Below are positions 1 through 21,866 of a stretch of DNA of 32,350 nucleotides, in pieces. Origin of the DNA: Rhodothermales bacterium (GTDB taxonomy: Bacteria > Bacteroidota > Rhodothermia > Rhodothermales > Bin80); the NCBI GenBank assembly GCA_022821875.1, contig JAJECV010000125.1, forward strand, positions 1 to 32,350, given 5' to 3'. Within the stretch, counting starts at the first letter, position 1. Each line of letters starts with the position of its first letter. The translations under genes were made by a program, and so were the position numbers. Under the pieces are notes generated by a model that saw nothing but the letters and a program-made list of their open reading frames with translations, was not told the DNA's origin and made no database searches.

Positions 1-288
1 ATTTTCTTCGCTGGGTGAACTCTTTGACTTACGTCGTCTCATTTCAAGACGAGCCGCGCGTTTCTTGGATGGATCAGACAGTAACACATCTACATACTCT
101 GATGGATCGTCCACCATCTGTGCAAAAATGACCGCACGAGCTACCGAAAGTGGCTTTCGAGACCACCAGAGGTGTAATGTGGATGGATGACTGTGGCGGA
201 TAGATTTTTCTCGTGCACCAGCCTCATTGATAGATTCAAGTGGTAATGCAGTTTCAATTAATTTCTTACGGTTTTTCTCCAATTGCAT
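1..288 (-). CDS. DUF1156-type DNA methyltransferase, N-terminal 96 codons only (runs off left edge)
   Basis: Manual minus-strand translation from ATG at 288: [96 protein letters not shown]; open to the edge. The 'K.LIE.ALPLE.IN..(A/S)[18 protein letters not shown](A/S)R(R/K)PL..ARAV.FAQ.VDDP' N-terminus is characteristic of DUF1156 proteins. Missing from ORF track because there is no stop in the window. Confidence 0.9.
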
Positions 289-583
289 GAGATATACAGG
301 GGGTGACGGTCAATCCGTAGAGACGATCTACATTTTGACCTTTCATGATTTTATTTTGACCAAAGCTGACAGCAAAAAGATCGTCCGCATGATTGCGGAT
401 GATCTTTCTCGCTGGATAGCATTCTTCGAAAGTACTCTGAAGACTGGAAGTACCAAAAGATGCGAATATTACCCGATTATCAAGGGACGGATGAAATGTG
501 GCCAAATAGACACTCAGAGAATCTTTTTTAGGTTCAAAATGAAGGCCTATCTGAGCATTAAGAGGACAGTTGCAGTTAGACAT
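266..583 (-). CDS. Hypothetical small protein (105 aa) between recombinase and DUF1156 gene
   Basis: ORF on the operon strand, 3' end overlaps the DUF1156 start by 23 nt; no recognised domain. Confidence 0.35.
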
Positions 584-689
584 GTCGGGACCTGACGCAA
601 TACCGGTGACGCACTCCTGTTCGCCTCCCTAATATAAAGCTTGGCCATAAAATAGTTGCAATAGAGAAGCCATTGAATGGTGTTTCGTG

Positions 690-1568
690 TCATTTTCCAC
701 AGTTTAGTACGGCTCCTATAGCAGTTCCGATCCGTTCCGCTGCTTCCTCTGTTTCACGGTCACAGACATGTGCATAACGTAAGGTCATGTGCTCCCGACT
801 ATGCCCAAGCAGACGTGCTACAACGGGCAGGGGGACCTTACTGATGACTGCATGGCTGGCAAATGTATGCCGGAGGTCGTGTAGACGGACATCCTCAAGC
901 TGAGCAACTCGCTTCACTTTTCGCCACAGAGATAACTCACTGGAGCGTGGTTTAGAAGTATCATGATGGGACGGAAAGATATAGATGTCACTAACTCTGG
1001 GCTGGCGGGCTAGAATTTCTTGGGATTGGGTGTTAAGGTGAACCGTACGTGATCCAGTTTTACTATCATGCAAATATAGCCTATCTCCATGATATTCAGA
1101 CCACCGCAAATGTATGATCTCCCCCTTGCGGCAGCCGGTAAACAATAGAAGTCGGATAATATCAACTTGCTGTTGACCGGAATCCCGCCCACAATGGGAA
1201 TCTAAAATTTTGTGTAACTGATGAATCTCTGCACGAGAAAGAAATCGAGTCAGCTTAAGGCGCGGATTTCGTTTCAGACCATTCGTAGGATTATTTTGAA
1301 TAAAACCACACTCAATTGCATAATTAAAAATCTGCTTTAATATATCGAGGGCACGATTTGCCCCTCCAGGGGCTGTCAGGCTATAGCGCTCAAACCAATT
1401 CAAAACGTCTACCGATTCAATGTGATCAAGACGCTTGATTCCAAACTCGGGGAGTAGTTGAGTTCGTAAAGCACTGTCTATGCGTGTGCGAGTTGATTTT
1501 TTGCATGGGCTATAACAAATTTTTTTCCAAGCACCAGCTATAAACTCATTTAATGTTGGGGAGCACAT
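690..1568 (-). CDS. Tyrosine recombinase/integrase (copy 2)
   Basis: Catalytic motifs: TGCRKGEI (Arg I), LHDLRHTFASH (HxxR), LLGHSREHMTLRYAHV (His, Tyr nucleophile); N-terminal SAM-like/core-binding region. Confidence 0.93.
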   Translation of the reverse strand: MCSPTLNEFIAGAWKKICYSPCKKSTRTRIDSALRTQLLPEFGIKRLDHIESVDVLNWFERYSLTAPGGANRALDILKQIFNYAIECGFIQNNPTNGLKRNPRLKLTRFLSRAEIHQLHKILDSHCGRDSGQQQVDIIRLLLFTGCRKGEIIHLRWSEYHGDRLYLHDSKTGSRTVHLNTQSQEILARQPRVSDIYIFPSHHDTSKPRSSELSLWRKVKRVAQLEDVRLHDLRHTFASHAVISKVPLPVVARLLGHSREHMTLRYAHVCDRETEEAAERIGTAIGAVLNCGK

Positions 1569-2449
1569 TGGTCAACATCAAGAGCTTTACCAATGGTTTC
1601 GACAGCACTGCGTTCCATTGAATCAGAAAAATGAGTGTACTTGAGTGTCGTACTTGGGTCTAAATGCCCGAGTAAACGCCCAATTGTAAGTAGCGACTCC
1701 CCTTCTCGAAGAGCGAAACTGGCATAATTATGCCTGAGATCATGTAAACGCACATCAGATATTCCAGCCTCATTTCGTACACTTCTCCAGCATCGATATA
1801 GCGTCTCTACAGACAAAGGAGCGGTTTTTCCATTGGCAGGAAACATCCACCTACTTCTGCGTGGTAACGTATCAAGTAGGGAGCGGGCAGAAGAAGAAAG
1901 CCAGACTGTGCGAGGGCCTGTTTTACTGTCCCGTAGAAACAGGTGACCCTCTCGATATTCTGACCAGAGCAATGTGCGAACTTCACTTTGGCGGCAACCG
2001 GTCAAAAGTAACAATCGGATTATCGTAACTGGAAGAGGCGAGCGTGATTCATGAGTGTCCAATATATTGCCGAGCTTGTGAATTTCGTCGAAGGTTAAAA
2101 AACGCTCACGACCAGAGCATGGATAGCGCCGGATTCTAGAGCATGGATTACTATTGAATGTCCGATAACCGTGAATTTCTGCCTGACGCATGATCAGGGA
2201 TAGGATGGATAGAGAGCGGTTAGCAGCAGCGGGTTTTTCATGTAGATTCGTGAACCACTGTTGTACATCTTGTCGGGTTATCTCACTGACAGATTGTCTT
2301 TGGAATGCCGGTAGAATCTGATTGCGAAGGTGTGACCGGTTCACTTTTAGAGTACTCGGCTTCCAAATGCGCTGATGATGGCGAAATACCATCTCGGTGA
2401 ATACCTCGAAGCAAGTATTCTCAGGATTTTTTTTGGATTCAGCGATCAC
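1550..2449 (-). CDS. Tyrosine recombinase/integrase (copy 1)
   Basis: Catalytic motifs: TGCRQSEVRTLLW, LHDLRHNYASFA, LLGHLDPSTTLKYTHF; overlaps the start of copy 2 by 19 nt. Confidence 0.93.
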   Translation of the reverse strand: MIAESKKNPENTCFEVFTEMVFRHHQRIWKPSTLKVNRSHLRNQILPAFQRQSVSEITRQDVQQWFTNLHEKPAAANRSLSILSLIMRQAEIHGYRTFNSNPCSRIRRYPCSGRERFLTFDEIHKLGNILDTHESRSPLPVTIIRLLLLTGCRQSEVRTLLWSEYREGHLFLRDSKTGPRTVWLSSSARSLLDTLPRRSRWMFPANGKTAPLSVETLYRCWRSVRNEAGISDVRLHDLRHNYASFALREGESLLTIGRLLGHLDPSTTLKYTHFSDSMERSAVETIGKALDVDQCAPQH

Positions 2450-2457
2450 GTAGAAGA

Positions 2458-5400
2458 CTATTTTGATTCAAATCCTTGTTTCTCAAAGCCCAATGTTCGG
2501 CAGTTTTCCAGTACTGTCCTTTCGGTATCAATAGGTGTTCCGTTTGGTATATGAGCAGTAATCTCTAAAGATACGGATACATCAGCATTTTCAAGTTTTA
2601 TTAGATGAGATATCACCTCCTCTACGATTTGTCCAGCGTCGCTACCGGCTCGAGTGGTATCAAGGGCTTTAGATCCATAAAATCGCTTATTGAGTTTTTG
2701 TTGATCTGGCGGAGGCTTGATAATTGGAGGCTTAGGTGGTTTTGTCCCTCCATCTCCGCCATTGATCAACTGCTGTTGAATTGCCGTACTGGATTTTACC
2801 AGTAAACTTGTTGTGTAAATGTCGGAAATGGCAATTGCCTCCTGTGTTCTCAGTCCGAAATACTTACCTGTTCCTTCGTCAAAACTGTCGGCATACGCGA
2901 AACTTTCATTATCTCCGCCGATCAGACTCAAGCCATTCTCAATAGATTGGAGCAATACTGTTGAGTCCCGAAGTCTCTGTAGATAGGGGTACTTAGCAAA
3001 GTATTCAACTAATTGCCGAATTTCTACATGGTTGCCGTTCCATAAGGGTACTCGGTCAAGTTCCATTTTGAGACGTGTACCAGCAAAGCTCGCCACCATA
3101 TACTCCTCCCTCTGCAAACGCTGAGAAACACGTTCGGCCAGCCCTCCATGTCCCCGCAAACGCATTGCTTCCCATGTAATGGGTTCGGTAGGGTCTGATT
3201 GGACAGGTACAAGCAGCCAGTGATAGGTTTCCGGTATTTGGACAGTTACTGCTTCTGCGGATGAGTCCCGTCGTTGTTTTGCTTGCTTAAGTTGCTGCCC
3301 AGACAAATTAAGTTCTTCACCTTCCTCCACGATGGACTTCCACGCAAGATAGCGACGAGTAGCTTCTTGCAGATCCTGTAATCGGGTTTGATCAGGGGCA
3401 AGAAAGATAAGCGCATTGCGATATTGGCGAGGAGAAGTGCCACGACTCTCTAAAATCTCTTTTGCGTGGATTTCTGCTTTCGAGTCACCATCTTTGTGAT
3501 AGACATGGTCAATTCCCAGTACCACTAACCTAGTTTCAAGGGTATCTTGTACGTCATGTCCAGTTTTCGGAGCAACATGGATACTCCCGAAACCACCTCT
3601 GTTAGTGAGTGCACTACGTAACTGTGATTCTATCTCAGATTGTACCCGATCAGGTTCCCGTGCAAACTGTTCTGCACGATCAGCGGCAAGTTTTCCTACT
3701 GTTGGCCTCGTATCATACCAGTAATTTTGTCCATCTTGGTAAAGATATGTGGAATCTGCCGCCAATCTTCTCAGTGCATCACCAAAAACAGCCTGCTGTT
3801 CACCCGGCAGGATACAACCCAACTTAATACGACGATCTTCAATTCCCCGGTGTGCTGATCCAGCGATTGGAGCTGAACCAAGGTAAATCGTTCTGGCAAC
3901 ACGACGACAAGCCGAATATTTGCCTAGACCCGATACCTCGGAATCAATTTTAGAGGGAAGTGATTGAGGCCCGTCTACATCTTTTTCAATGATCGGTGTC
4001 CAGTTATCGGACAGGTAACGAGTTAGTTCCGAAAGCACCTGATGTTCGTCAATTGCAATAGAAGCAGGTAGTATAAGAGGACTCTGATCCCCCCTTTCCC
4101 AGAGATTGTGGATAACAGCTGCCATCAACCGAAGGACTCCACGTGTCCGTTGAAATCGTACAAGTGTTGACCAGTCGTTGTATAGTCGGTCAAACACCTC
4201 AGGATGGATTGGGTATGCGTCCCGAATGCGCTTTTCATAGTCGGATTCTCGGCATTCAAGGGGAAAATCTTTGGAATTTCGGCGATAGAGTTCGACAAAT
4301 TCACGAGCGACTAAATCCCTGTCTTTAGACTGATCCGGATCTGTAAACGGTTGAAACAGTCGTCGTCGTACGATTTCAAATCCCTCGTCCGCACTTGCAG
4401 GCCTCCACGAGGATTCTATACGCCCAACTACATTACAGAGTCGATCCAGCGCTTCTCGACCACGCTGCCCTCCAACCTCAAGGTCATCCGCCTGCTGAAA
4501 TGGGGATGTTGAGGAATCTGATGCAGGTAGGCTCACAACTAGGAGGCAATTTTTAACTCCTTTTGCTGCTTCAGTGAGCGCCTGAGCAAATGTAAACTGA
4601 GTTTCAAAGCTACCAGCAGGCAAGTCACTCTGATCATGGAGTTGGCGCGCGTAAGCAACCCACTCGTCAATAAGAATGAGGCAAGGACCATAATCTGTTA
4701 GCAAATGGCGTAGCCTATCCCCAGGGCTCGTTGCAAGTTCGTCGTCTTTGGCAATCAACTGATATGCTTCCGCTCCTCCAAGCTGCCATGCAAGTTCTCC
4801 CCACAGAGTTCGTACAATTGTACCGTCGGATTTAGATACGGGGTTACCTGGAGAAATTTTATTGCCGACTAGAACCACACGCTTAACAGTCGGGAGTGCG
4901 GAAATATCAAGATTCCGCAGAATCACATCAACTCCTTCAAGCTGGTTCAGTCCAGTACCAGAAAACAGATGGTAGAGGGCTAGCATAGAGTGAGTCTTTC
5001 CACCACCAAAATTAGTCTGGAGCTGCACAACGGGATCCCCGCCCTTGCCAGTTATACGGAGGACAGAGCCGGATAGAATATCCCTGAGGCTATCCGTTAA
5101 GTATGTACGGCGGAAGAACTCAACTGGATCAAGGTATTCATTACTCCCTTCTCCCATATGAACTTGCCAGAGATCTGCGGCGAATTCTGCTTGTTGATAG
5201 TGTCCATTTGCTACATCTTTGTGAGGCGTGGCCACTAAACGCCATGGCTTCAGAGAAGAAGATGCTTTCCCAACAGCAGATGTGATTTTGCGTCGTTCAC
5301 TTCGCATCTGTTGGTCAAAGCGAGTACGGAGAAGTTCTAGTCGGAGTTTTTCAATTTCTGCAGATTGAGGTGCGGAAATTGAGGTTAATAGCCGTCCAGT

Positions 5401-5745
5401 TGTGTCAAGAACCCGGAGCGCATCATCACCTGAAAATTGTTCTTGATGTGCCCACTTATTACGATGCTCAAGTAATTCACTTACAAAACTACGTTCTGCT
5501 GGTCCGAGAGTTACACGGAATACATCACGCCAGGTTGCCATCATAATTTTGAGCAATGCCGCTACATCCCATTCATTAACAGGATGGTCGCCAATCTGAG
5601 GGTCCTCGACAAACCGGCGTAGAGTAGAGGTGTCTACCTTGTTTGATTTGATTGCAGCATGGATTTCGCGATCCACGAAGGGACCGAGTCCATCTTTTAG
5701 AAGGGTAAGCGCTTTTCCAACGCGCTCGTAATTCGTTAACGCCAT
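2458..5745 (-). CDS. DUF499 domain-containing AAA+ ATPase (anti-phage-associated family)
   Basis: 1095 aa; Walker A GGGKTHSMLALYHL, Walker B CLILIDEWVAYARQL; overall sequence typical of DUF499 proteins; 42 bp downstream of helicase and 8 bp upstream of recombinase. Confidence 0.88.
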   Translation of the reverse strand: MALTNYERVGKALTLLKDGLGPFVDREIHAAIKSNKVDTSTLRRFVEDPQIGDHPVNEWDVAALLKIMMATWRDVFRVTLGPAERSFVSELLEHRNKWAHQEQFSGDDALRVLDTTGRLLTSISAPQSAEIEKLRLELLRTRFDQQMRSERRKITSAVGKASSSLKPWRLVATPHKDVANGHYQQAEFAADLWQVHMGEGSNEYLDPVEFFRRTYLTDSLRDILSGSVLRITGKGGDPVVQLQTNFGGGKTHSMLALYHLFSGTGLNQLEGVDVILRNLDISALPTVKRVVLVGNKISPGNPVSKSDGTIVRTLWGELAWQLGGAEAYQLIAKDDELATSPGDRLRHLLTDYGPCLILIDEWVAYARQLHDQSDLPAGSFETQFTFAQALTEAAKGVKNCLLVVSLPASDSSTSPFQQADDLEVGGQRGREALDRLCNVVGRIESSWRPASADEGFEIVRRRLFQPFTDPDQSKDRDLVAREFVELYRRNSKDFPLECRESDYEKRIRDAYPIHPEVFDRLYNDWSTLVRFQRTRGVLRLMAAVIHNLWERGDQSPLILPASIAIDEHQVLSELTRYLSDNWTPIIEKDVDGPQSLPSKIDSEVSGLGKYSACRRVARTIYLGSAPIAGSAHRGIEDRRIKLGCILPGEQQAVFGDALRRLAADSTYLYQDGQNYWYDTRPTVGKLAADRAEQFAREPDRVQSEIESQLRSALTNRGGFGSIHVAPKTGHDVQDTLETRLVVLGIDHVYHKDGDSKAEIHAKEILESRGTSPRQYRNALIFLAPDQTRLQDLQEATRRYLAWKSIVEEGEELNLSGQQLKQAKQRRDSSAEAVTVQIPETYHWLLVPVQSDPTEPITWEAMRLRGHGGLAERVSQRLQREEYMVASFAGTRLKMELDRVPLWNGNHVEIRQLVEYFAKYPYLQRLRDSTVLLQSIENGLSLIGGDNESFAYADSFDEGTGKYFGLRTQEAIAISDIYTTSLLVKSSTAIQQQLINGGDGGTKPPKPPIIKPPPDQQKLNKRFYGSKALDTTRAGSDAGQIVEEVISHLIKLENADVSVSLEITAHIPNGTPIDTERTVLENCRTLGFEKQGFESK

Positions 5746-5787
5746 TTTAGGAATAACTCAGTGCCTGAGGGTAAAATCGAAGTGTTG

Positions 5788-8700
5788 TTAGGCCGTGATA
5801 TGCTGTTCTTTAAGAGGGTCGCTGGCTTTACTCAGCAATGTTTTCAAGTTATACTTAACACTCGTGACCCCAAAATCAGGTTCGCACCGGAAAGGAGTCC
5901 TAATGTAAGAGATTTTCGGAGTTTCGTCATGGTAAAACTGGACGATTGCAAGGATGAACTGGTCTGGCTTATTCAGAGAATAGAGGATCTCATTGTGCGT
6001 CACGGTGATATCCTCAGCATCACTTCTTCGCCCTTTGACTTCAATAAACCTAAGTTCCCCCGTCTTGGGATCACGGCTCTCAATATCGTAGCCAAGTTTT
6101 TCAAACTCACGGTCAGTCGGTTGGAAGCCAAGCTTACGCTCGGTTTCCATGATGATCTCCCTTGCTTTTGCAGCAACGACTAGAGTATCAACCCTTTTAG
6201 GTCTGATCTGCCCGGTCATTTTATCAATCAGGCCTTGAGGGATCACTAACAATCCTCCGAGTACAACTGGCGGAAGTGATGAAATTTGAGAATCTCGATC
6301 TAGCTGCTCCATCCGATTTTTCAATCTTGCGTATAACTTGTCGGCTCGTTGCCGTGCCTCGCTCCAATGCAGTCGCGCATTCACCTTACCAGCTTTTTCA
6401 TCCAACTTAAGTTGTTCAGATCTATTATCCCAGAAGCCGATCTCTCTAGTCAGTCGCTCCTTAACCGCGCTTCTGGTTTTTTCAACAAGTTCCAATTTAG
6501 CCGCCTTAACCTCACCAAGATGGACTGGGACTATATTTTCTATGGCATGTATCTGAGCTTTCTTCTCTAGATCCCGGTTGATCCACGAACATTCAGGTCT
6601 CTTGAGGATTTTGTGAACAGTTGGATCTTCTTCAGTCAGTGGGCGATAGTCAAGATATGGTGCGTATTGCAGGTGGCGCGGCTTGTTCTCTGTGTCAATT
6701 TCGACATAAAGCACTTTTTCCGAGATTGTTTGGCGCTCACGATCATTAATCTGGTTTCCATCCTGAATCACATGCCTAATGGAGAAAAGGACACGAGGTG
6801 TGGTGCTGGAATCTTTATCGTCAACAAGTATCGCTCCCCTTTTTAATAAATTGCGATCTCGCTCAAGAGTTAAATCCATGACAGCATTGAGCAACGGATG
6901 TCCGGGACTGACAAATGCTGCAGGAGGCTTCCCCTGTGGCTTGGATACTAACGATTTTTCAAATGCAATTCGCTCGTAGCGGCGTAATACCGGACTTCCC
7001 GTCCCAATTTGCCGATCACGATTTCTCACGGATTCTGGTACATGCTTTACTTCATAGCGATGGGGCTCACGTTGCTGTATGCGTCCTCCAAGCCTTTTGA
7101 ATGCTTCAAGGAAAAACGATTCAATGTAATGCGGCTGGAGGCGGCGGGCTTCTGCACGCTCCATTTCGTCACGAACTCGTTGCACTCGGGAGACATCCAT
7201 TGCATCAACCACCAACTGGTGCTCATCCAGCAATGCTTGAATCCTGTTGGAATCAAAAGTTTGATCAATGATCTTCGTAAGGCGTGCACGGACATCCGGC
7301 TGCTCTCCGTACCGAATTGCTTGCAGAAGCAGATCACGAAGAGGCTGTCCTTCAAATTCAAGTTTCCCCAAAACATCAAATACCCGCCCCCCGAGTGCTT
7401 TTCGTGCTTGATCTAGTTTCTCCAGTAGCCTCCGATATACATCCCCCTCCCGGGTATCGTCTGCGACTAAATTCCATAGATGACATACTTCTGTTTGTCC
7501 AATTCGGTGAATGCGGCCAAATCGCTGCTCTAATCGGTTCGGATTCCATGGAAGATCGTAGTTGACCATAAGATGTGCTCGCTGTAGATTGATACCTTCG
7601 CCGGCGGCATCAGTGGCCAATAAAATCTGGACTTCTGGGTTGTGCCGAAATGCTTCCTGTATGGCTAGCCTTTCTTCTCGCCCTACACTTCCATGAATCA
7701 CTTTTATAGCTTCTGGGCGTCCGATTCGCGTAGTGATTCGCTGATGTAGGTAATTGAGGGTGTCTCGGTGTTCAGTGAAGACAACCATCTTCCTTCCTCG
7801 AACGTCTCCCGAATGACCGTGGGACAAACTTTCGTGCCCAGTTTCTCGTCCATTGATGTCAGTCGATGGAACTGCGAAAATTTCATCCAGGATGGATGCC
7901 AACTCGTTCCATTTTGTGTCTTTACCAGAGCGGCGTACGTTCAATGCGTGTGATTCCAAGTCTTTGAGGGTATTGATTTCTGATTCAAGTTCCCTGATCG
8001 ATTGTGCAGCAGTTGCCAGATCAAGGATGTCTGATTCAACATCTTCAAACTCCTGCTCAGGTATGTCCTCAAGATCCTCAATCTGATCTGAATCCAGATC
8101 CTTAGTTTTCCAATCAATACTTACTTGGCTTCCTCTTTGTATCAGTCGTAATTCTCCAATTCGACTTTCAAGACGTTGCCGACGTCTTTGAAGAGACCGA
8201 TATATGGCCTCTGGTGAGGATGCGAGGCGTCTCTGAAGCATAGTGAGTGCAAATCCAACCGTTCCAGCTCTTTTATCATTTCCAAGTGCATCTATCCGGG
8301 AAAATTCTTCGCGCACATAAAACGTTACGGCTTTATACAGATAGGCTTCCTCATCTGATAGTTGGTAGGTCACAGTATAAGCTCGGCGTTCTGGAAAAAG
8401 AGGCTTACCGTCGAATTTCAGAAGTTTTTCTTTAACCATTCTACGCATCAGATCTGACACATCCGATGTATGGACACCATCCCGGAAGCGGCCTTCAAAT
8501 CGGTCACCATCAAGCAAAGCCATAAAGAGTTGAAAGTCCGTTTCTTTCCCATTATGCGGGGTGGCGGTCATGAGTAAGAGGTTGCGAGTCAGACCAGAAA
8601 GGAGTTGACCAAGGCGATAGCGTTTGGTGTACTTGATTTCGCCACCCCAGAATGTTGCGGACATTTTGTGGGCTTCATCGCAGACGACCAAATCCCACTC

Positions 8701-9381
8701 AGCATCAGGGGCTTTTAGTTTTTCCTGAACTTTTTCGTCGCGAGAAAGCTTGTCAAGTCGGGCGATTACTAAATTCGCCTCAAGGAACCAGTTGTGGGTA
8801 TGTGCAGCTTCAAGCTTGTCATTCGTCAGGATGTTAAAATGGAGATGGAACCGTTGGTATAATTCATCCTGCCACTGCTCAGCTAAGCTACCAGGGCAAA
8901 CTATGAGACATCGTTCCAGATCACCGCGAGCAATCAACTCCCTGATTAGAAGTCCAGCCATAATGGTTTTACCCGCGCCTGGATCATCTGCGAGAAGAAA
9001 TCTCAGCGGCTGGCGTGGAAGCATTTCTTCATAGACTGCCGTGATTTGGTGAGGTAGAGGATCTACGACAGATGTATGAATTGCCATTAATGGGTCAAAC
9101 AAATGAGCGAGACGGATGCGCTGAGCCTCGGAGACTAAGCGGAATTTCGCTCCATCTCCATCGAAACTCCATGGCCGTCCCTGTGTGACGATTTTCAGTC
9201 GTTTTTCGTCATCACGACAGAGCAATTCATTTGCAACGTCACCCGAAGCAGATTTATAAGTCAGTTCTATTGCACTTGAACCGTACCATTCGACACTAAT
9301 GACCGTGACGGGAGCATCGGGTAGTATTCCCGATACCGTACAGGCCGATTTTAGATCTTCAAGACGCACATTACACTCCAT
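5788..9381 (-). CDS. SNF2/DEAD-like helicase with C-terminal DUF3883-like domain
   Basis: Motif I LLADDPGAGKTIMAGLLI, motif II VVCDEAHKMS, motif III LLMTATPHNG, motif VI NRLEQRFGRIHRIGQ; C-terminus GYDIESRDPKTGELRFIEVKGR resembles DUF3883. ORF track starts at GTG 9390; the ATG at 9381 fits the predicted promoter better. Confidence 0.9.
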   Translation of the reverse strand: MECNVRLEDLKSACTVSGILPDAPVTVISVEWYGSSAIELTYKSASGDVANELLCRDDEKRLKIVTQGRPWSFDGDGAKFRLVSEAQRIRLAHLFDPLMAIHTSVVDPLPHQITAVYEEMLPRQPLRFLLADDPGAGKTIMAGLLIRELIARGDLERCLIVCPGSLAEQWQDELYQRFHLHFNILTNDKLEAAHTHNWFLEANLVIARLDKLSRDEKVQEKLKAPDAEWDLVVCDEAHKMSATFWGGEIKYTKRYRLGQLLSGLTRNLLLMTATPHNGKETDFQLFMALLDGDRFEGRFRDGVHTSDVSDLMRRMVKEKLLKFDGKPLFPERRAYTVTYQLSDEEAYLYKAVTFYVREEFSRIDALGNDKRAGTVGFALTMLQRRLASSPEAIYRSLQRRRQRLESRIGELRLIQRGSQVSIDWKTKDLDSDQIEDLEDIPEQEFEDVESDILDLATAAQSIRELESEINTLKDLESHALNVRRSGKDTKWNELASILDEIFAVPSTDINGRETGHESLSHGHSGDVRGRKMVVFTEHRDTLNYLHQRITTRIGRPEAIKVIHGSVGREERLAIQEAFRHNPEVQILLATDAAGEGINLQRAHLMVNYDLPWNPNRLEQRFGRIHRIGQTEVCHLWNLVADDTREGDVYRRLLEKLDQARKALGGRVFDVLGKLEFEGQPLRDLLLQAIRYGEQPDVRARLTKIIDQTFDSNRIQALLDEHQLVVDAMDVSRVQRVRDEMERAEARRLQPHYIESFFLEAFKRLGGRIQQREPHRYEVKHVPESVRNRDRQIGTGSPVLRRYERIAFEKSLVSKPQGKPPAAFVSPGHPLLNAVMDLTLERDRNLLKRGAILVDDKDSSTTPRVLFSIRHVIQDGNQINDRERQTISEKVLYVEIDTENKPRHLQYAPYLDYRPLTEEDPTVHKILKRPECSWINRDLEKKAQIHAIENIVPVHLGEVKAAKLELVEKTRSAVKERLTREIGFWDNRSEQLKLDEKAGKVNARLHWSEARQRADKLYARLKNRMEQLDRDSQISSLPPVVLGGLLVIPQGLIDKMTGQIRPKRVDTLVVAAKAREIIMETERKLGFQPTDREFEKLGYDIESRDPKTGELRFIEVKGRRSDAEDITVTHNEILYSLNKPDQFILAIVQFYHDETPKISYIRTPFRCEPDFGVTSVKYNLKTLLSKASDPLKEQHITA

Positions 9382-9393
9382 TGTTGGCACAAA

Positions 9394-10287: not shown

Positions 10288-10545
10288 ATGAATGATCAAA
10301 CTCCAAATACTACACGCATGTTTTCACTCTTCCGTAAGCTGGTCAAGGACGGCAAGCAGTCTGCGGAGGAAACTCACGAACTTGTAGAACTTATTGAAAC
10401 CATGGCAGGAACAAATGTAATTGAGCGGCTGGAGTCGAAGATGGACGCTAAGATGGACGCGCTAAACACGAAGTACACGGTCCTAATCTGGGCAATTGGC
10501 TTTGCTGGATTGGTTATTTCACTTGCAATAATTTTTCAAGGATAA
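10288..10545 (+). CDS. Small coiled-coil protein with C-terminal transmembrane helix
   Basis: 85 aa; predicted coiled coil (LESKMDAKMDALNTKY) then hydrophobic tail; similar along its length to the ORFs at 20215 and 21353. Confidence 0.65.
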   Translation: MNDQTPNTTRMFSLFRKLVKDGKQSAEETHELVELIETMAGTNVIERLESKMDAKMDALNTKYTVLIWAIGFAGLVISLAIIFQG

Positions 10546-11098: not shown

Positions 11099-11248
11099 TC
11101 GGAATGTCCCTCCGGAATGGGCTAAAGGGCTTCCGATTGATTGCATCCTCGGAATGTCCATCCGGAATGGGCTAAAGGGCTTCCGACTGATTGCACCCTC
11201 GGAATGTCCCTCCGGAATGGGCCAAAGGGCTTCCGACTGATCAGCCCC
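11099..11248 (+). repeat. Tandem array A: 3 x 50 bp
   Basis: Unit tcggaatgtccctccggaatgggctaaagggcttccgactgattgcaccc begins at 11099, 11149, 11199; last copy diverges into the terminator. Confidence 0.97.
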
Positions 11249-11280
11249 CAAGGATATCTATAGTGTCCTTGGGGTTTTTT
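11246..11280 (+). terminator. Rho-independent terminator after array A
   Basis: CCCCAAGGA-(loop)-TCCTTGGGG followed by TTTTTT. Confidence 0.9.
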
Positions 11281-11907
11281 GTACTTAAAAGAAGCCAATT
11301 ATGCCAGATATTGAGTTTGTGTTTTTCTTGATTAATGGGGGATATAGATGTTCATATTGCCCGGGATCTGGAGTTTTCTGCTGACTGGAAAGATGCAGAA
11401 ATTACTCGTCCATGTCGTATCAGAAGTACCTAAGACTTCAAGACCGGTTGAGTTTCGGTGTCTAGCGTCAACTGAGAAGGCGGATGATGACAACTAAGAA
11501 AGGATTTCGTCCACAGGGGAAACAGAGAACGAGGGAACGGTGATTGTGGGAGAAAGCCTAGTTACTGTGACGGGCTTCTTACGACGTTGGTACATCCATA
11601 TAATTTTAAAGAGATACGTTTATACGTAAGTTATCATTGAAGGTATTCTGGGGGATGTCAGGCCATGAGATATCTGAAGTCCGTGCAAACGTAGTCCCGG
11701 CCTCCCTCCAAGAACCCAACACTCAACCAGCAGCCGTATGGGAAGCACCTCCGTTACGGCTCCAAAATCAGGAGCAAGGAAGGATGTTCCTTGGTTTTTG
11801 GACCGAATAGTCTCAGTTCTCTCCCGGAAAATGGACGATAACGTCGCTCCGAGGATTCACCTGAATACACAAAAGTCACTGTGAGGCCGGTTTTCTTTGA
11901 AACATTT

Positions 11908-11936
11908 TTGCATAATTGATCGTAATTGCCTATACT
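11908..11936 (+). promoter_or_regulatory. Predicted promoter for array B RNA
   Basis: TTGCAT (11908-11913), 17-bp spacer, TATACT (11931-11936); predicted TSS about 11943-11944, where the first repeat begins. Confidence 0.7.
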
Positions 11937-11943
11937 AGTATTG

Positions 11944-12041
11944 ATCTAACCCTCGGGTTGCCCTCCGAACTGGAATCAAAGGGCCCCGAATAATCTAACC
12001 CTCGGGTTACCCTCCGAACTGGAATCAAAGGGCCCCGAATA
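11944..12041 (+). repeat. Tandem array B: 2 x 49 bp plus partial third unit (atctaa)
   Basis: atctaaccctcgggttgccctccgaactggaatcaaagggccccgaata begins at 11944 and 11993; the unit start recurs at 12042. Copies differ by one visible substitution (g/a in gttgccc/gttaccc). Confidence 0.97.
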
Positions 12042-12047
12042 ATCTAA

Positions 12048-12070
12048 GGACGCTTTGAGCGTCCTTTTTT
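12048..12070 (+). terminator. Rho-independent terminator between array B and NYN gene
   Basis: GGACGC-TTTGA-GCGTCC followed by TTTTTT. Confidence 0.92.
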
Positions 12071-12072
12071 GT

Positions 12073-12696
12073 ATGAGATTGTCAGACATATCACATTGCC
12101 GTATTCGTATTTTCCTTGACTATTGGAATTTTGAACTTTCAATGCGTGCCATGGACAATAAATTTAATACCGATTGGGAAAAGATCGGACCTGTCCTTGT
12201 TCAGGCAACATCCGAAGTCATTCAAACATCACAGCCGGTGGAATTTCAGGGGCTTAAATTCTATGGATCCTATGGTCCTACAGAGCAGGGGTATAAGCGT
12301 AAAGAGTGGGTAAATAAGTTAGTTGCTATGCTACCGGGGGTGACCGCTCATATGTTTGCCAGACATCGGAAGAAAAATTATCCAGAATGTCCGCGGTGTA
12401 ACGCTAAGGTGAAGGCCTGCCCAAAATGTAGGGCTGATATGCGGGGAACTCAAGAAAAAGGAGTCGACGTACGGATTGCGACAGATATGATTACATTGGC
12501 GTGGGCCGATGATTATGACGTAGCCGTACTCGTCTCTTCAGATGCAGACTTTGTACCTGTAGCCGAATTCCTGGAGACGAGAGGAATCAAGGTGATCCAT
12601 GGATCTTTCCCTGGACAGGGGCACCATCTGAGTTCTCGCTGCTGGGCACGAATTGACCTGTTTCAGCTACGCAACAAATTCCGTTTTCAAAAATAA
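12073..12696 (+). CDS. NYN domain (LabA/DUF88, PIN-like) ribonuclease with internal CxxC zinc-ribbon-like insert
   Basis: RIRIFLDYWNF...ECPRCNAKVKACPKC...KGVDVRIATDMITLAWADDYDVAVLVSSDADFVPVAEFLETRGIKVI: conserved acidic residues of NYN proteins are present. ORF-track start at 12055 lies inside the terminator; in-frame ATG at 12073 is preferred. Confidence 0.9.
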   Translation: MRLSDISHCRIRIFLDYWNFELSMRAMDNKFNTDWEKIGPVLVQATSEVIQTSQPVEFQGLKFYGSYGPTEQGYKRKEWVNKLVAMLPGVTAHMFARHRKKNYPECPRCNAKVKACPKCRADMRGTQEKGVDVRIATDMITLAWADDYDVAVLVSSDADFVPVAEFLETRGIKVIHGSFPGQGHHLSSRCWARIDLFQLRNKFRFQK

Positions 12697-20153: not shown

Positions 20154-20775
20154 TTAGTTCCTGATACACTTGGTTGGGTCTGTAGATTCAGGGAACTGAT
20201 CTCCAGATGACCCAATGGCCATCACCACGCGTGCCTTCACCTTACTTCGTAGGATAGGTGAGGGAAAGACGTTAAAACCAGACCAAGTCCACGAACTGTT
20301 AGAGCTTTTGAAGACCATGTTAGGATCAAACGTAACCACTATACTTGACTCTTTTCGTGCGGAGATGAACAGCAAACTTGCTGCCATTGACTCTTTTCGT
20401 GCGGAGATGAACAGCAAGATTAATTCTATTCGGTGGCTAATTGGAATTGTCGGTGGTGCCATGACGATCCTGTTTGCCGCAATGACGGTGTTTGTTGCGA
20501 TCCTTGCACTCGGCGGGTAGAGTCCTGCAAACATGCTTTTATACTGCGTAGCTGCGGTGTCTGTCATCGCTATTCCCTGTGAACTTCCGTCAAGATCTCC
20601 GTGCAATCAGGTTTTTGGAGTTTATCATCTGGATTTTGAAGCAAACGTGTCTGATGGAAGATGTGTCTGTGCCTTGAACGGACAGTAGTAGGATCAGACG
20701 ATGTGGACACGATTGTTTGCGAAACTGTATTAAAATCTTCAGACTTGTTATTGTGGGCAGAAGTGTAGTTGCCTG
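20154..20775. repeat. Diverged segmental duplication, copy 1
   Basis: Homologous by eye to 21190-21866, including the small ORF and its downstream flank (agtcctgcaaacatgctt..., cacgattgtttgcgaaactgtat..., gggcagaagtgtag). Confidence 0.85.
20215..20520 (+). CDS. Small coiled-coil/transmembrane protein with 14-aa internal repeat
   Basis: DSFRAEMNSKLAAI/DSFRAEMNSKINSI repeat (42 nt unit) followed by hydrophobic WLIGIVGGAMTILFAAMTVFVAILAL. Confidence 0.65.
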   Translation: MAITTRAFTLLRRIGEGKTLKPDQVHELLELLKTMLGSNVTTILDSFRAEMNSKLAAIDSFRAEMNSKINSIRWLIGIVGGAMTILFAAMTVFVAILALGG

Positions 20776-21189: not shown

Positions 21190-21866
21190 CAGTTCTCGGT
21201 ACACTTGGGTCTATGGATTCAGGGAACGGATCTCCAGATTACAGGCATGAAGGGATCATTGCATGGCTAGATTCATCAACATGTCAGAACCCGTCAGCCC
21301 GATGATATAACGTTCATCACCATGTGTGCCTTTACCTTACTGCACAGGATAAGTGAGGGAAAAGACGTTAAAATCAGACCAAGTCCATGAACTGTTAGAG
21401 CTTTCGAAGACCATGTCAGGATCAAACGTAACCACCATACTTGACTCTTTTCGTGCGGAGATGAACAATAAACTTGCTGCCATTGACTCTTTTCGTGTGG
21501 AGATGAACAGTAAGATTAATTCTATTCGGTGGCTAATTGGAATTTTCGGTGGTGCCATGACGATCCTGTTTGCCGCAATAACGGTGTTTGTTGTGATCCT
21601 TGCACTCGACGGGTAGAGTCCTGCAAACATGCTTTCATGCTGCGTAGCTGCAGTGTCAGGGCTGCCCCCTGTGAACTTGCGCAAGATCTTTGTGCAATCA
21701 GGTTTTTAGATTCCTGCCATCTGCGAGAATTTTGAAGCAAAGGCATCTGAGGAGAAGTGGGTCCGGCCTTGAATGGTGGTAGGCTCAGATGATGAAGACA
21801 CGATTGTTTGCGAAACTGTATCAAAGACACCAGACTTATCATTGCGGGCAGAAGTGTAGAGACAGT
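21190..21866. repeat. Diverged segmental duplication, copy 2
   Basis: See copy 1; offset of the ORF core is 1096 bp. Confidence 0.85.
21353..21616 (+). CDS. Small coiled-coil/transmembrane protein, paralogue of 20215 ORF
   Basis: Near-identical protein after a changed N-terminus (apparent frame disruption upstream of KTLKSDQVHELLELSKTM). Confidence 0.55.
   Translation: MREKTLKSDQVHELLELSKTMSGSNVTTILDSFRAEMNNKLAAIDSFRVEMNSKINSIRWLIGIFGGAMTILFAAITVFVVILALDG

Follow-up and report, generated by a model that had tools for sequence, protein, structure and literature searches.

The window, a stretch of DNA of 32,350 nucleotides, is a single contig of a metagenome-assembled genome. Its plus strand carries an intact cassette at 11908–12696 that combines a promoter, a repeat RNA, a terminator and an NYN-domain gene:

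11908–11936, plus strand: promoter TTGCAT-N17-TATACT of the RNA gene, with TTGCAT at 11908–11913 and TATACT at 11931–11936 (from the sequence and the block in relatives)
11944–11992, plus strand: RNA unit 1, 49 nt, consisting of 5' ATCTAACCC, a hairpin and AATAATCTAA (sequence, Tandem Repeats Finder, RNA model)
11993–12041, plus strand: RNA unit 2, 49 nt (close relatives have a single unit only)
12046–12070, plus strand: intrinsic terminator AAGGACGC-TTTGA-GCGTCCTT with T-tract, between the RNA and the NYN gene
12073–12696, plus strand: intact NYN-domain ribonuclease gene, 207 aa (Pfam NYN, PADLOC HEC-09, alignment)

The promoter is sigma-70-like, and its position places the expected transcription start near 11943–11944. 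As the original prediction had it, TTGCAT-N17-TATACT leads into a 49-bp repeat, and the promoter block is kept in five relatives (G003, G004, G006, G007, G008); taken by itself, the promoter does not exceed chance expectation, with four promoter-like sites in 1.7 kb versus 2.6 in shuffles. Tandem Repeats Finder delineates the array at 11944–12047 (period 49, 2.1 copies, 98% matches, score 201), including a partial third copy, ATCTAA, at 12042–12047, and finds only two arrays in the whole window. Unit 1 is matched at E = 3.2e-16 by the RNA model R3, which was built partly from the window's own units. The predicted tandem repeat is therefore present here, and its two-copy form is peculiar to the window genome, the nearest relative having one unit. 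The terminator stem spans 12046–12066, the T-tract runs to 12070, and the ATG of the NYN gene follows at 12073, 3 nt past the T-tract (stop 12694–12696), as had been described. The missing Shine-Dalgarno, which the original prediction pointed out, is uninformative, as the window's phylum makes little use of Shine-Dalgarno sequences. An integron attC site, a chance repeat and a CRISPR array were each considered and rejected, the last on a whole 49-nt unit repeated at 98% without spacers; no Cas proteins were found among the window proteins scanned (Pfam, PADLOC).

The window NYN protein matches Pfam NYN PF01936 (E = 2.8e-13) and, over its C-terminal half only, the PADLOC HEC-09 profile PDLC04163 (E = 5.1e-13). 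This profile is matched full length by the homologues at L057, L061, L062, L074 and L038, and its E values over the window and plasmid NYNs range from 5e-13 to 1e-94. Residues D16, N19, D132, D157 and D159 are invariant among the aligned homologues, the aspartates being acidic residues of catalytic type. The zinc-ribbon-like CxxC...CxxC insert of the original prediction lies at res. 106–119 (about 12388–12429); it is kept throughout the alignment of the window's subfamily, which the four cysteines mark. An AlphaFold2 model (pLDDT 76) has a single confident PDB match, 2qip, a protein of unknown function. Between the window and G006 proteins, pN is 0.19 with synonymous change saturated, and hence NYN is under purifying selection. 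For another NYN protein, an Mn-dependent endonuclease activity on single-stranded RNA without sequence specificity is reported (PMC11346440). The window protein has no match among viral contigs, and only three phage records have an NYN protein match. Family members in plasmid records such as CP027479 and OW967273 carry the name 6-hydroxy-3-succinoylpyridine hydroxylase (HspA), an annotation that seems to have been transferred by mistake.

A second, older cassette, overlooked by the original prediction, lies upstream of the intact locus at 11099–~11465:

11099–11245, plus strand: array 1, 50-nt units in 2.9 copies related to the 49-nt RNA (array 11099–11241)
11246–11280, plus strand: array 1's own terminator
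11281–11465, plus strand: NYN pseudogene remnant that follows array 1 and is collinear with the intact copy (tblastn, DNA alignment)

Array 1 is a diverged form of the 49-nt RNA, with a promoter that is decayed in the window and intact-looking in L009. The remnant retains 52% identity over 25 aa by tblastn, and its DNA can be aligned with that of the intact copy up to 2 nt from the T-tract. The local score of this DNA alignment is 53, versus ≤36 in window segments without a remnant; the only control segment to reach 53 as well is one that includes the NYN remnant. The window thus holds two RNA-terminator-NYN cassettes, one of them dead.

The minus strand encodes an Hma defence system (55–9390):

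5788–9390, minus strand: HmaA helicase (PADLOC, E = 0)
2458–5745, minus strand: HmaC ATPase, HEPN_Swt1 + DUF499 (Pfam/PADLOC profiles)
55–276, minus strand: N-terminal part of HmaB, off the contig edge

Two tandem tyrosine recombinase genes (690–2449) are located between HmaC and HmaB. Elsewhere in the window, two short ORFs (20215–20520 and 21353–21616, about 100 and 87 aa) are related to each other and end in a membrane-like C terminus; 10288–10545 may hold a third member.

Six of the nine congeneric genomes have NYN homologues, most of them interrupted or frameshifted; one copy has two single-base indels that could be assembly errors. The RNA, a matching promoter block and the terminator lie upstream of NYN in five of these six genomes, in addition to the window. 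An insertion separates RNA and NYN in G003, and the NYN gene of G002 (45% identity) has no recognisable RNA. A covariance model of the window-type RNA returns strong matches only at the NYN loci of six genomes, and the terminator hairpin is found once per RNA-carrying genome (n = 6) and is absent from all other genomes of the genus. The module of promoter, hairpin, terminator and NYN resides in two different genomic neighbourhoods within the genus, and therefore RNA and NYN behave as a single unit. Tandem duplication is confined in the genus to the window array and array 1, the usual state being one hairpin unit. The conserved unit is a single, predicted structured hairpin RNA, not a tandem array.

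Beyond the genus, HEC-09 matches are found in 50/396 genomes of a phylum sample, and a relative of the HEC-09 profile matches 450 plasmid records. The original prediction had proposed a scan upstream of NYN homologues for tandem repeats plus a terminator. In loci picked by protein match, not by upstream sequence, RNA and terminator proved frequent (16/18 plasmid and 37/46 Bacteroidota loci) and tandem repeats mostly absent. On plasmids, the 16 intrinsic terminators end ≤33 nt before NYN; such a terminator precedes 1/40 neighbouring CDS and 0/67 long ORFs (1/107 controls in total). At the 37 Bacteroidota loci, a small RNA and a terminator next to it are present, compared with 6/102 controls. 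They comprise 20/46 loci in the co-directional, type III-like order (0/102 controls) and 17/46 in which the RNA is divergent and its terminator points away from NYN (6/102 controls). The predicted promoter-RNA-terminator-ribonuclease architecture is thus real and widespread, with the qualification that the RNA is divergent at these 17 loci and in two close relatives, from Aeromonas and Cobetia.

The closest NYN relatives are encoded by small plasmids of Pararoseomonas, Novacetimonas and Paracoccus, where promoter, RNA, terminator and NYN are all present; the RNAs of these alphaproteobacterial plasmids have the outer stems CUCGG/CCGAG, CUUGU/ACAAG and CUCAU/AUGAG. Most loci contain a single RNA unit. 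Two small E. coli plasmids have a 33-nt hairpin repeat ahead of the NYN gene, in four copies in L062 (NZ_LR890655, 4.6 kb) and five in L085 (NZ_CP127036). The E. coli array itself shows a compensatory change, and these plasmids offer a ready experimental model. No RNA is visible at the NYN genes of L092, L094 and L097 among the Bacteroidota loci read, and neither a terminator nor an RNA was found upstream of the actinobacterial homologues L060, L075 and L083, a branch that may work differently.

The RNA could be a cis-acting leader or attenuator only, whose terminator and hairpin set NYN expression via read-through with no role in trans. A terminator a few nucleotides before NYN, as in the window and at 20/46 and 16/18 loci, is compatible with such a role. 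It does not accommodate the 17/46 Bacteroidota loci, nor Aeromonas and Cobetia, where the RNA is on the opposite strand and points away from NYN: covarying stems would not be kept at divergent loci, and tandem duplication is likewise unexpected for an attenuator. Because of the divergent loci, we regard a pure leader as distinctly unlikely.

In each of three RNA types, covariation supports the nested helices that were examined. In type B (11 Bacteroidota/Rhodothermota sequences and one from Leptospira), 93% of cells are paired and two-sided changes occur in 11/15 pairs; slid controls reach ≤54% pairing and 0/500 shuffles are as high in covariation, although the shared ancestry of the sequences means that shuffle counts cannot be read as probabilities. 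Type A is 94% paired, with two-sided changes in 7/8 pairs. The window-type RNA is also 94% paired and is the weaker case, with two-sided changes in 3/9 pairs. Window-type and plasmid RNAs, put into one long alignment, left too many gaps for pairs to be counted, and their stems were compared by hand on folds. Folding z-scores for single sequences are weak (−1.1 to +0.3), so the case for structure rests on covariation, not energy. Rfam covariance models gave no match in the window and only unrelated or weak matches in the loci scanned; at a permissive threshold these were RNAI of ColE1-type plasmids and chance matches.

A small RNA adjoining a putative toxin gene is also what a type I-like system would present, the RNA being antisense to the NYN mRNA and blocking its translation. 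The RNA and the NYN gene do not overlap, however, and the energies of duplexes between RNA and NYN mRNA are no different from those obtained with shuffled RNA (10/10 pairs, z −1.3 to +1.6), making antisense pairing extremely improbable.

Searches that started from the RNA returned the same association and also RNA without NYN. Model R1 (type B, cut-off 1e-13, 396 genomes) yielded 17 strong matches, 10 before intact NYN, six before broken NYN genes or remnants and one orphan; five loci were new relative to the protein search, four of them with NYN remnants behind the RNA. Model R2 (type A) yielded 42 strong matches at a cut-off of 1e-8, weak RNA-model matches (E > 1e-5) looking mostly like chance. 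Sixteen of the 42 are at intact NYN; of the remainder, 17 were read and nine left out, with contig ends limiting some. Most of the 17 have broken NYN or NYN remnants. At five of them the RNA adjoins another defence gene (DUF3800, HsdM, HsdR, a methylase, and AbiE behind an NYN start remnant), and two have NYN remnants followed by Abi_2.

A divergent type A RNA is directly beside the DUF3800, methylase, HsdM and HsdR genes at L151, L161, L164 and L168, where a search for an NYN homologue found none; either NYN was replaced at these loci or the RNA may have other partners. In L114 and L166, AbiE-like genes adjoin the RNA where the start of NYN is truncated; the insertion in L114 follows the first NYN codons. 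These two loci suggest that NYN loci are hotspots for defence-gene exchange.

Given type A RNA beside DUF3800, HsdM, HsdR, methylase, Abi_2 and AbiE genes, the RNA may serve defence genes in general, as a partner or regulator, or mark a recombination hotspot at defence islands, with NYN merely its commonest neighbour. In several cases, an NYN remnant stands in between (G314, G269, G210, G201, G235), so that NYN replacement explains these neighbours, and the window-type RNA has NYN as its sole observed partner. A general role of this kind therefore appears very unlikely.

Overall, RNA without NYN is common and NYN without RNA rarer. That the RNA outlives NYN more often than the reverse is what one would predict for an RNA that guards against the protein, as an antitoxin does against a toxin. 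The main rival of the antitoxin reading is an activating cofactor or guide: an NYN-RNA ribonucleoprotein effector, crRNA-like or retron-like, would process its own RNA and need it for activity. NYN proteins do process CRISPR RNA (PMC11346440), and a guide would fit both the conservation of loops and of unpaired 5' segments (ACCC, CUCA) and the encoding of the RNA in trans at divergent loci. Against this, the RNA has no variable spacer-like part and has been retained at many loci that have a broken NYN or none at all, as would not be expected of a cofactor. We consider a cofactor role unlikely.

We favour, as fairly probable on the comparative sequence evidence, a trans-acting RNA antitoxin that restrains the NYN endoribonuclease, akin to type III toxin-antitoxin systems or AbiF/RCd22. 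This reading draws on the anatomy of the loci, the conserved RNA structure, the co-distribution of RNA and NYN, the intact catalytic residues and the asymmetry in RNA and NYN loss, and we also count in its favour the variable repeat number on E. coli plasmids, the lack of an antisense match to NYN mRNA, the endonuclease activity reported for another NYN protein, and the presence of the NYN family on plasmids and of the window NYN beside Hma defence genes. Counted against it are the single-unit loci, the NYN genes without visible RNA, type A RNA beside other defence genes, and a survey of Pseudomonas in which HEC-09 correlated with susceptibility to phages (PMC12447246). The original proposal of an RNA-antitoxin analogue with an unrelated NYN nuclease thus holds for the architecture, while tandem repeats and operon order are not the rule.

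On the antitoxin reading, the locus would be a module of two components, an NYN-fold endoribonuclease and the gene of a small RNA with a high degree of structure. Transcription would mostly stop at the terminator, producing an excess of free hairpin RNA, and a minority of transcripts would read through into NYN mRNA. The hairpin RNA would bind NYN in trans and block its active site, keeping an otherwise toxic nuclease harmless. Should the RNA supply stop, upon plasmid loss or phage takeover, NYN would cut cellular or phage RNA, a trigger that would suit plasmid maintenance or antiviral defence. At divergent loci, the RNA's own promoter would stand in for control by the read-through ratio. Whether RNA-restrained NYN nucleases form a separate, widespread RNA-antitoxin class unrelated to ToxN seems to us evenly balanced; such a class would be found in Bacteroidota/Rhodothermota, Pseudomonadota and Spirochaetota at the least, its RNA genes would be operonic in some loci and divergent in others, and the RNA would stay behind at defence islands where other defence genes have taken the place of the nuclease. 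If true, RNA antitoxins would be joined to another ribonuclease fold, three covarying RNA families without an Rfam match would be gained, and the RNA would give an immediate handle on the function of a plasmid-common family otherwise annotated only as 'NYN domain-containing' and listed as a single-gene defence candidate. Should these NYNs depend on a small RNA, assays done with the protein by itself would meet with toxicity or mislead.

HEC-09 is itself a published candidate, not new here: an Hma-embedded candidate in PADLOC, the concept being cited in PMC12988326. The window and plasmid NYNs match its profile and the window gene is near HmaA/HmaC; PADLOC lists a protein profile only, of which an RNA partner is not part. 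The CRISPR-associated NYN ribonuclease of B. fragilis shares the NYN fold and has an RNA-processing role there (PMC11346440). Unlike that system, the loci described here have no Cas genes or spacers, and nothing suggests crRNA. Rfam contains DUF3800-associated RNA motifs, in which a structured RNA gene lies beside a nuclease-like defence protein; RNA and protein both differ from ours, although one type A RNA adjoins a DUF3800 gene, and we found nothing specific in the literature on these motifs. In line with the original prediction, which knew of no described family, the combination has no Rfam match, and no paper describing it was found in the open literature searched. No paper joining NYN with type III toxin-antitoxin systems was found either; subscription papers and bioRxiv preprints were outside the search, and a prior description is possible.

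What defines type III systems (ToxIN, CptIN, TenpIN) is the combination of a repeat RNA and a terminator with a toxin of the ToxN fold (PMC5086642). The NYN loci resemble them in having one promoter, a small structured repeat RNA, a Rho-independent terminator and a downstream, here putative, endoribonuclease (PMC5086642), and also in unit length (33–50 nt), variable repeat number and occurrence on plasmids. The terminator between RNA and toxin genes is present in the window and at 16/18 plasmid and 20/46 Bacteroidota loci, but not at divergent loci. Tandem arrays of RNA units, as in type III, are present in the window (2.1 copies), array 1 (2.9) and the E. coli plasmids (4–5); most loci have a single unit. 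Type III antitoxin RNAs are also pseudoknotted and neutralise a toxic endoribonuclease by binding it directly; the structural comparison here covered nested helices. The nuclease is NYN/PIN-like (Pfam NYN, 2qip match) rather than of the ToxN fold, and in many loci the RNA is divergent. Because the fold and, mostly, the repeats differ, the module is not filed under type III; with another predicted fold, repeats mostly missing and the RNA often divergent, it is not a ToxIN family member. The nearest published analogue is AbiF with RCd22, in which a SigA-type promoter, an about 100-nt ncRNA with stem-loop motifs and a terminator precede a nuclease-like defence gene of the AbiF/Abi_2 type expressed via read-through (PMC12373285). 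Their protein belongs to the Abi_2 family and the RNA motif is unrelated (no Rfam match here), but the order is the same in both: promoter, stem-loop ncRNA, terminator and then a nuclease-like gene.
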